A stretch of DNA of 39,635 nt. Origin: an uncultured Clostridia bacterium (GTDB lineage: Bacteria; Bacillota; Clostridia; UBA1381; CAJOGA01). How positions within the stretch are numbered: position 1 is the first letter of the stretch; every line of letters starts with the position of its first letter. Positions 1,177 to 3,959 of this stretch are shown here, piece by piece. A program made the translations under genes and the position numbers. Below the pieces are notes generated by a model, which saw nothing but the letters and a program-made list of their open reading frames with translations, did not search any database and had not been told where the DNA came from. The DNA lies in the NCBI GenBank assembly GCA_905233855.1, contig CAJOGA010000003.1, forward strand, positions 1-39,635, in the 5' to 3' direction.

Positions 1177-1674
1177 TTATTTTATGTGTTTTTTTAATGC
1201 AACCAACGTAAGGAACGAAATTGATATTCCGGCAAACACTTGAAGAAAATCAAGCCAAATACCAAACAGCGGTTTTATAAAATCACCGTCATACAGCATG
1301 AACGCATATGCAACATAGTAACATATAATCATGATACCCGAACCGGCAAGCATCGCCAGAAAATATTTTATGTATGATTTTTCCTTTGTACCATAAGCTA
1401 AAAAACCGGTTATTGTTCCCATAAGTCCTTTCGCTATAAAGGTAGCCAACATCCATTGAGGTGCTCCTGCCAGCACATCCGCTATGGCAGACGCAACACC
1501 GCCGGCAAAAAATCCGCCGAGCGGGCCTGTGAGTATTGCTGCGGTAAATATGGCGGCATCGCCCAAATGTATATAACTTCCGTTAGGGAATTTTATGTTG
1601 ACAAACGCTGTTAAAACAACCGTAAGTGCAGACAAAACCGCAATCAGGGTTATTTTACGGGTGCTGATTTTCAT
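1177..1674 (-). CDS. ECF transporter S component, substrate unknown
   Basis: This is a roughly 165-residue, very hydrophobic protein with about five to six membrane segments. It shows the S-component hallmarks of energy-coupling-factor transporters: an alanine-rich first helix (AVLSALTVVL) of the kind that contacts the transmembrane EcfT subunit, then a GDAAIFTAAILTGPLGG block followed by FFAGGVASAIADVL, typical of the PF07155 group. Such proteins bind a vitamin or similar small molecule and share the EcfA/A'/T module, which is not in this window. The start is uncertain: ATG 1674 lies 15 bp from AAAGGAG (complement of 1690-1696), while an in-frame TTG at 1686 lies only 3 bp from it. It is the last gene of the FMN-riboswitch operon, 20 bp after the SGNH hydrolase, so a flavin-related substrate is possible but unproven. 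Confidence 0.8.
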   Translation of the reverse strand: MKISTRKITLIAVLSALTVVLTAFVNIKFPNGSYIHLGDAAIFTAAILTGPLGGFFAGGVASAIADVLAGAPQWMLATFIAKGLMGTITGFLAYGTKEKSYIKYFLAMLAGSGIMIICYYVAYAFMLYDGDFIKPLFGIWLDFLQVFAGISISFLTLVALKKHIK

Positions 1675-1694
1675 TCTTAATGTCAATAGCTCCT

Positions 1695-2345
1695 TTATTT
1701 TAGATGTTCGCTTACTATTTTGGTCCATTGCTGAGCCATGTGATAATGACCTGCAGCGGTAGGATGTATACCGTCCCATATCCAATACGCTTCATCGCCG
1801 GTTTGTGCGGCAAGATCATCAAACATTTTCTGGAACGGAACAAAAATTGCATTGTACTTTTTAGCACATTCTCTTATAACCTCTTGTTTTTCAGGCAATG
1901 ATACCGACAGAACAACACCTTCGTGTCTTGGGGTTTTCATGTCAAGATACATAAACGGTTCGCACAAAATAAGCTGTAAATCAGGGTTCATTTCAAATGA
2001 ACGTTCTATCATTTCGGTAACAGCCTCGCGTGTCTGAGCCGTTGTTCTGCAGCCGGACGATGCACCAACGTCGTTAACCGGGCAAAGAAGACTTAATACA
2101 TCGGGCTTAAGAGCGATAGTATCTTCTTCCCAACGGTCTAAAATCTGCTTGCTGGTGTTGCCGGAAACACCACGGTTATAGAATGTGATTTTATCTTCCG
2201 GATGTTCGGCTGTGTACTTGGAAACTATGTGATACACATATCCGTGTCCGTATAAATGGTTTGGGTCTTCGGTTCTTCCGCGGCCCATATCGGTTATTGA
2301 GTCGCCCTGGAACAAAACTGTTGAATTTGGTTTGAATTTTAGCAT
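1695..2345 (-). CDS. SGNH/GDSL-family hydrolase (esterase-like)
   Basis: The 216-residue protein has no signal peptide, so it should be cytoplasmic. The SGNH blocks are recognisable: GDSIT at 14-18 with the nucleophile Ser16, SGN at 61-63 supplying the oxyanion glycine and asparagine region, VND at 90-92, and the catalytic dyad Asp191/His194 in WDGIHPT. Block III normally reads Gly-x-Asn-Asp; here it is Pro-Val-Asn-Asp (residues 89-92), which is unusual. Family members act as esterases or deacetylases on acylated sugars or other small esters. AGGAGG lies 7 bp before ATG 2345. It sits 29 bp after ribU and 20 bp before a second ECF S component, with no terminator on either side, so it should be under FMN control. 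The substrate cannot be told from sequence. Confidence 0.85.
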   Translation of the reverse strand: MLKFKPNSTVLFQGDSITDMGRGRTEDPNHLYGHGYVYHIVSKYTAEHPEDKITFYNRGVSGNTSKQILDRWEEDTIALKPDVLSLLCPVNDVGASSGCRTTAQTREAVTEMIERSFEMNPDLQLILCEPFMYLDMKTPRHEGVVLSVSLPEKQEVIRECAKKYNAIFVPFQKMFDDLAAQTGDEAYWIWDGIHPTAAGHYHMAQQWTKIVSEHLK

Positions 2346-2374
2346 ACAAATGCCTCCTGCGTATATAGATATTT

Positions 2375-2962
2375 TTATTGTTTTTTTATTATTTTTGATA
2401 TTCTTTTGTATAAAAGCAGTGTTACCACAGCATTGATTACGGATTTTATGAAATTAAAAGGTATAACACCGAAGTAGATATATCCGTTTATGCTTGTAAC
2501 ATGCTTGTTCACGCCATTACAAATAGCCACTATTTTTTCTTCTGTAAGTCCCATCATATTAACATACGCCCAAATGATAAAGAAGCGGTTTATCAATGCG
2601 GCAAAGATTATTGTAACTACAGTAGATACAACCAAAGCCAAAACGGCGTTTTTGCGTGTTTTGTTGCGGCTATACACTATCCCTGCCGATACGACCATTG
2701 CTACACTTATCAAAAAATTTGACAGCTCGCCGACATACATAGTCGTGCTGACAAACAAATGCAGAGCATTTTTTATAAATGCAACCGCAATTCCGGCAGG
2801 TATTCCCATTGCAAAGGTTGCAATAAGCACGGGCACTTCACTTATATCAAGCTTTAAAAACGGCGGCATTAACGGAATAGGGAAGTCGATAAACATCAAA
2901 GCCGTCGATACCGCTGCAAGCATAGCAATAGAAACAAGTTTTTTTGTGGTTGTTTTTTTCAT
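2375..2962 (-). CDS. ribU: Riboflavin ECF transporter S component RibU
   Basis: This 195-residue membrane protein matches RibU, the riboflavin-binding S component of ECF transporters. Visible features are the helix-1 alanine motif (SIAMLAAVSTALMF), the IDFPIPLMPPFLKLDISEVP segment typical of RibU, a GIPAGIAVAFIKNALHL block and about six membrane helices. The start ATG at 2962 is chosen because AAGGAG lies 9 bp upstream; the longer open frame runs back into the riboswitch. The gene directly follows an FMN riboswitch, which is the classical control of riboflavin uptake: high FMN lowers expression. It works with EcfA, EcfA' and EcfT encoded elsewhere. Two further genes follow in the same transcript. 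Confidence 0.93.
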   Translation of the reverse strand: MKKTTTKKLVSIAMLAAVSTALMFIDFPIPLMPPFLKLDISEVPVLIATFAMGIPAGIAVAFIKNALHLFVSTTMYVGELSNFLISVAMVVSAGIVYSRNKTRKNAVLALVVSTVVTIIFAALINRFFIIWAYVNMMGLTEEKIVAICNGVNKHVTSINGYIYFGVIPFNFIKSVINAVVTLLLYKRISKIIKKQ

Positions 2963-3065
2963 ATTATAAAACTCCTTAGAAAAATATATTTTATTCCGCA
3001 GAGTGCAGCAATTTTTTAAATCGCATTTTATAATATGGTAATTTACATGATAAAAAAATATCATT

Positions 3066-3228
3066 CTTCTCCCATCCGGACTGTTACCGTCGGTGCCGGA
3101 ATCACACCGGCTCAACTGATTAATCCGTTAATTACGGATCAAAGCTTGCGGACTTATTATGCAAAAGACGCATAAATCACCGCCGGATTGGACTTGCGTA
3201 GGCACTACGCTCACCACACCCTGAAGAA
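3066..3228 (-). promoter_or_regulatory. FMN riboswitch (RFN element)
   Basis: Read on the minus strand, the element starts with TTCAGGGTG near 3226, contains the conserved AATCCGGCGGTGAT core, a variable AT-rich arm around 3110-3140 (ATCCGTAATTAACGGAT), and closes with GATTCCGGCACCGACGGT and AGTCCGGATGGGAGAA near 3068. These are the universally conserved RFN segments. About 100 nt separate it from ribU. I do not see a strong U-tract terminator in that stretch, so control may be translational or use a structure I could not resolve. Together with the promoters it accounts for the gene-free stretch 2963-3389. Confidence 0.95.
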
Positions 3229-3236
3229 CACATGTC

Positions 3237-3265
3237 ATTATAACACTCAACGCTTTCCAATTCAA
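3237..3265 (-). promoter_or_regulatory. Sigma-A promoter of the ribU operon
   Basis: On the minus strand, TTGAAT (complement of 3260-3265), 17 bp and TATAAT (complement of 3237-3242) stand just before the riboswitch aptamer. The predicted transcript begins at about 3230, close to the 5' base of the RFN element. Confidence 0.8.
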
Positions 3266-3389: not shown

Positions 3390-3959
3390 ATGAAAAAAAC
3401 ATGGTTGATTATTATTGCACTTATAATTGTTATTATTTGCGTGCTTGGCGTACAGATGTGTATTAAGGGAGGCTTTTTTACCGCACCTGAAGTAACGTCG
3501 ACGCCTGTTCCGTCGGCTGTAAACACCCCAACATCAACTCCTGATGATGTTAAGAAAGTTACACTGTATTTTGTGGACAGCAATGCCGAATATCTTTTGC
3601 CCGAAGAAAGAAGCGTCAGAGCAGAAGATATAAACTCCTTGGCTTTGGCAACATTAAACGAGCTTATAAAAGGGTCGGCAAACAATCACGGGGCAAGCAT
3701 TAATCCCGATACAAAGATAAACAGCGTTAAAGTTGAAAACGGTGTTTGCTATATAGATTTCAAATCGGATTTTGAAAATAAAAACACCGGAGGAAGTGCA
3801 AAAGAGTCTTTCTTTATATATTCGATAGTAAACACTTTGACCGAATTTGACACCGTAAATGAAGTTAAACTTTTGTCAGACGGCGAACCTGTAACAGAAT
3901 TCGGGCATTTTATATTGGATGAACCTTTAGTAAGAGATGAAAAAATGATAAAAAAATAA
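3390..3959 (+). CDS. GerMN-domain membrane-anchored protein, copy 2
   Basis: This 189-residue protein starts at ATG 3390, 8 bp after GAGG (3378-3381). An N-terminal hydrophobic helix (residues 4-28) is followed by a Pro/Thr/Ser-rich linker (about residues 32-52) and one GerMN domain. The domain shows TGGSAKESFFIYSIVNTL, then EVKLLSDGEPVTEFGHF, close in pattern to the protein at 369 (GGSINEILTIYSIVNSL). The anchor differs: no clear lipobox, so it is probably held by its N-terminal helix or secreted. The two genes are diverged paralogues that flank the FMN operon. It is followed after 24 bp by birA and is probably co-transcribed. A role in sporulation or cell-envelope interaction is inferred from the family. 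Confidence 0.82.
   Translation: MKKTWLIIIALIIVIICVLGVQMCIKGGFFTAPEVTSTPVPSAVNTPTSTPDDVKKVTLYFVDSNAEYLLPEERSVRAEDINSLALATLNELIKGSANNHGASINPDTKINSVKVENGVCYIDFKSDFENKNTGGSAKESFFIYSIVNTLTEFDTVNEVKLLSDGEPVTEFGHFILDEPLVRDEKMIKK

Follow-up and report, generated by a model that had tools for sequence, protein, structure and literature searches.

In a 2013 survey of riboswitch regulons, the FMN riboswitch was linked to riboflavin synthesis and transport genes only (PMC3766115). A 2015 survey placed one before the PLP synthase genes yaaDE of Thermaerobacter marianensis, with no obvious role in riboflavin metabolism (PMC4418817). Among the S components of ECF transporters, HmpT was originally named for hydroxymethylpyrimidine, but the substrate recovered on extraction and identified by mass spectrometry was pyridoxamine (PMC4860826). 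Our literature searches found nothing on an FMN riboswitch with an ECF transporter and pyridoxine, or on an FMN riboswitch together with an SGNH hydrolase. We analyzed a window of 39,635 nucleotides (contig CAJOGA010000003.1, positions 1–39,635) from an uncultured Clostridia bacterium, whose minus strand carries, in this order, an FMN riboswitch, ribU, an SGNH hydrolase gene and a second ECF S component gene. We consider it rather probable that this row is an operon for vitamin uptake in a riboflavin auxotroph, in which an FMN-switched ribU is accompanied by a passenger SGNH gene and an importer of vitamin B6.

All features of the row lie on the minus strand. A candidate promoter with an extended −10 element (TTGAAT-17-TATAAT, 10/12 matches; 3237–3265) is located directly upstream of the FMN aptamer (3060–3232). 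The promoter scan as a whole was at chance level (10 sites versus 7.3 ± 2.9 in shuffled sequences), so that only its position argues for this candidate. The aptamer is followed by a long AU-rich hairpin, the predicted expression platform (2960–3038), and by ribU (2375–2962), the SGNH hydrolase gene (1695–2345) and the second S component gene (1177–1674). The intergenic gaps, read off the sequence, are 29 nt (2374–2346) and 20 nt (1694–1675), and a Shine-Dalgarno-like AGGAG precedes each of the three genes. The site scan found no terminator-like sites on the minus strand within the operon. From the gene spacing, we infer that the three genes are likely to share one transcript. The original prediction of a probable operon with gaps of 20–29 nt, no internal terminator and two unexpected genes behind the riboswitch and ribU agrees with these results in both coordinates and gene families. 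The same gene order was found in no other genome, leaving the operon without backing from conservation; the arrangement, seen in a single genome so far, may reflect a link between vitamins B2 and B6 or chance gene packing.

The surroundings of the row showed further features. Genes encoding lipoprotein-like proteins with a Germane domain (PF10646) are located on each side of it on the opposite strand (369–872 and 3390–3959). The gap that follows the S component gene contains two identical copies of a 26-nt palindrome, arranged as direct repeats 267 nt apart (GGGATGTGATAAAATGCACATCCCCT; 879–904 and 1146–1171), and three further strong hairpins were found between them, where the chance expectation is 0.

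The aptamer scored 87.3 bits (E 9.9e-19) against RF00050, above the curated cut-off of 66.2 bits, and covered the full-length model (positions 1–138 of 138). A genome scan detected this FMN riboswitch as a single copy in the 1.67-Mb genome. No GC-rich terminator was found between the aptamer and ribU. In all modeled states, the Shine-Dalgarno region and start codon of ribU were paired within the AU-rich hairpin, and the predicted unpaired probability of the start codon was 0–0.02. Because the start region sits in a hairpin in every modeled state, the riboswitch most likely acts on the translation start of ribU. Read-through transcription would then extend to the SGNH and S component genes. As the predicted hairpin would govern the translation of ribU, these two genes may sense FMN only indirectly, via polarity or coupling.

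The best PDB match of the ribU product was RibU 3p5n (E 2.2e-29), placing it with the solved RibU proteins, and it also matched PF12822. A search of the genome revealed no RibE, RibBA or RibH, and the one weak RibD match was a TadA-like deaminase. Because of these absences, the organism appears to be a riboflavin auxotroph that must import riboflavin. S components of the shared type need an ECF module, and the genome encodes one EcfA-EcfA'-EcfT module on another contig (C24), as in group II transporters with a shared module.

The SGNH protein (PF13472, E 1.2e-23) had 4q9a and Axe2 as its nearest structures by both sequence and fold; its fold model (pLDDT 83) shared the SGNH fold with these two structures, with a TM score of ~0.8 to each. 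The GDS, N-D and D-x-x-H blocks are present, S16, N91, D191 and H194 are invariant among its relatives, and the triad S16-D191-H194 is as in Axe2. In the G-x-N-D block, this protein has Pro in place of the near-invariant Gly. No signal peptide is apparent. No close relatives were present in the genomes compared, and the best SGNH protein in a scan of genome contigs was 42% identical. None of the 49 relatives with flanks adjoined a RibU- or HmpT-like gene, with one weak exception at locus L037, a 67-residue match to a different membrane protein of the S-component type, and none of the 20 flanks scanned contained an RFN element. By sequence and model, the protein resembles carbohydrate deacetylases of the Axe2 type with no direct tie to flavins, and most probably the gene is a passenger whose product deacetylates sugars rather than flavins. 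Recent transfer of the gene was considered, and its G + C content (43%) gave no sign of it, lying within the 32–44% of the genes in the window.

In a single case, the L037 locus on a Ruminococcaceae contig (1821–5633), an SGNH gene whose product is 38% identical overlaps a HAD hydrolase gene behind a gene for an FMN-binding protein, and genes for ApbE and a NusG domain II protein are located nearby.

The second S component was assigned to PF07155 (E 8e-31), and its sole sequence match in the PDB was HmpT (4hzu, E 6e-13), which is thus its nearest solved relative. Among the HmpT pocket positions named in PMC4860826, Y120, Q143 and W76 are identical, and E41, H84, Q87 and N140 are changed to D, K, M and D, respectively. 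The fold model of the protein was poor (pLDDT 55). Four genomes of the order (G005, G008, G011 and G021; families f2 and f3) encode a relative of the protein right next to a gene for a B6 kinase. The kinases of G011 and G021, the two tested, and the kinase of the genome studied here exceeded the NCBIfam cut-off for pyridoxamine kinase. In the latter genome, the S component gene is unlinked to the kinase gene, which is located elsewhere, and no PdxS was found. Vitamin B6 is the most likely substrate because of the likeness to HmpT, the relatives beside kinase genes, the lack of PdxS, and the presence of both a pyridoxamine kinase and an ECF module; the protein most likely imports B6 rather than a flavin derivative. 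In concert with the shared ECF module, it would take up pyridoxamine or a close vitamer, which the pyridoxamine kinase would then phosphorylate. In several genomes of family f4 (L049–L052, L055, L057 and L058), an HmpT-like S component gene was also observed between or next to the genes for O-acetylhomoserine sulfhydrylase and cysteine synthase, both of which are PLP enzymes.

In G011 and G005, the gene order is pdxK, S component gene and glycosyltransferase-like gene; in the genome studied here and in G002, pdxK adjoins the glycosyltransferase-like gene with no S component gene between them. This order hints at relocation of the S component gene from a pdxK operon, which the tree neither supported nor rejected. 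The S components in question were all long branches in the tree, with too little signal to assign a clade: the protein was not placed with the kinase-linked S components of f3, a grouping that was not rejected (p-AU 0.097), and placement with HmpT was not firm. The best S component among the relatives was 34% identical, and no RFN element was present in the flanks of the 20 relatives that were scanned.

RFN elements were present in 73 of the 95 genomes of the order. We examined 71 RFN loci outside the genome studied here, up to 5 kb downstream, some of them shortened by contig ends. A gene of the RibD cluster, as in ribD-type biosynthesis operons, was detected in 33 of these loci, and a RibU match likewise in 33. 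The genes right behind ribU differed, encoding a small multidrug export protein, a phosphoribosyltransferase, an undecaprenyl phosphate translocase, a metal ATPase or PlsX, or were lacking. Because the followers of RFN and ribU vary in this way across the order, their turnover appears to be frequent, and the SGNH gene may fairly be regarded as a chance passenger. An SGNH or HmpT-like gene was found within ~5 kb of the RFN element in none of the 71 loci, and relatives of both genes occur at the order level without an RFN element, an outcome that the original prediction had itself named as speaking against it. Two side observations were made in the survey. In G010 (L154, 300–2416), another unexpected gene lies within an RFN-ribU unit, where a family 88 glycosidase lipoprotein gene separates the FMN riboswitch from ribU. 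In G051 (C91, 23822–24132), two weak FMN-riboswitch-like matches occur in tandem, both under the cut-off.

The original prediction explained the two unexpected genes by uptake of a flavin derivative or ester by the second S component, from which the SGNH enzyme would release flavin inside the cell. The position of the genes behind an FMN riboswitch and the neighborhood of the SGNH gene at L037, with its FMN-binding, HAD and ApbE genes, are in keeping with this, but the S component resembles a B6 binder, the SGNH protein resembles sugar deacetylases, and the SGNH relatives lack both RFN elements and, apart from the weak match at L037, RibU- or HmpT-like neighbors. Protein families and relatives without RFN linkage led us to reject flavin-ester uptake, which we regard as very improbable; what stands of the original prediction is a likely operon with two unexpected genes behind RFN and ribU. 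Import of hydroxymethylpyrimidine or another thiamine precursor instead of B6, to which the first name of HmpT and a weak NCBIfam ThiW match would point, is improbable as well: the genome's single TPP riboswitch precedes thiT, the best PF08543 kinase is the pyridoxamine kinase and falls far under the ThiD cut-off, and HmpT itself yielded pyridoxamine (PMC4860826).

With vitamin B6 as the preferred substrate, it can be asked whether FMN controls its uptake. A shared response to flavin shortage, the weaker alternative within the original prediction, possibly applies, and it is more in keeping with a B6 importer than with one for flavin esters. Conversion of pyridoxine or pyridoxamine phosphate to PLP requires an FMN-dependent oxidase (PNP oxidase), and for this reason it would make sense for low FMN to raise the uptake of both riboflavin and B6. 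The likely single transcript and the yaaDE precedent in T. marianensis (PMC4418817) favor such cross-regulation, but it would be confined to one genome, as 0 of the 71 other RFN loci show it, the predicted hairpin would govern translation of ribU and not of the downstream genes directly, and the FMN regulons of the 2013 survey comprise riboflavin genes only (PMC3766115). We regard cross-regulation as possible but doubtful, given its occurrence in one genome with no conservation. If the B6 importer does answer to FMN, the locus would join T. marianensis as a second and independent example of B6 supply being coupled to an FMN riboswitch and would make a link between B2 and B6 testable. If it does not, genes settle freely behind RFN and ribU, a warning against assigning substrates from the riboswitch neighborhood alone.

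Compared with the FMN riboswitch–ribU units of Firmicutes, the locus has the same aptamer, the same placement ahead of ribU and the same role in a riboflavin auxotroph, whereas two additional genes, neither of them a riboflavin gene, stand behind ribU. The SGNH protein shares its fold, triad positions and similar size with the Axe2 acetylxylan esterase family (PDB 3w7v and mutants; 4q9a), but is only ~30% identical, has Pro for the Gly before V-N-D and is not adjoined by xylan genes. The second S component is of the same PF07155 type as HmpT (PdxU2; PDB 4hzu) of Lactobacillus brevis, with ~30% identity and Y120, Q143 and W76 kept; it differs in the replacements at E41, H84 and Q87 and in its location behind an FMN riboswitch. 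As in T. marianensis (PMC4418817), an FMN riboswitch would be tied to B6 supply, although in a different organism group and through uptake rather than biosynthesis. We tentatively suggest that joint control of B2 and B6 supply by an FMN riboswitch might have arisen with uptake genes in this genome and with synthesis genes in Thermaerobacter.
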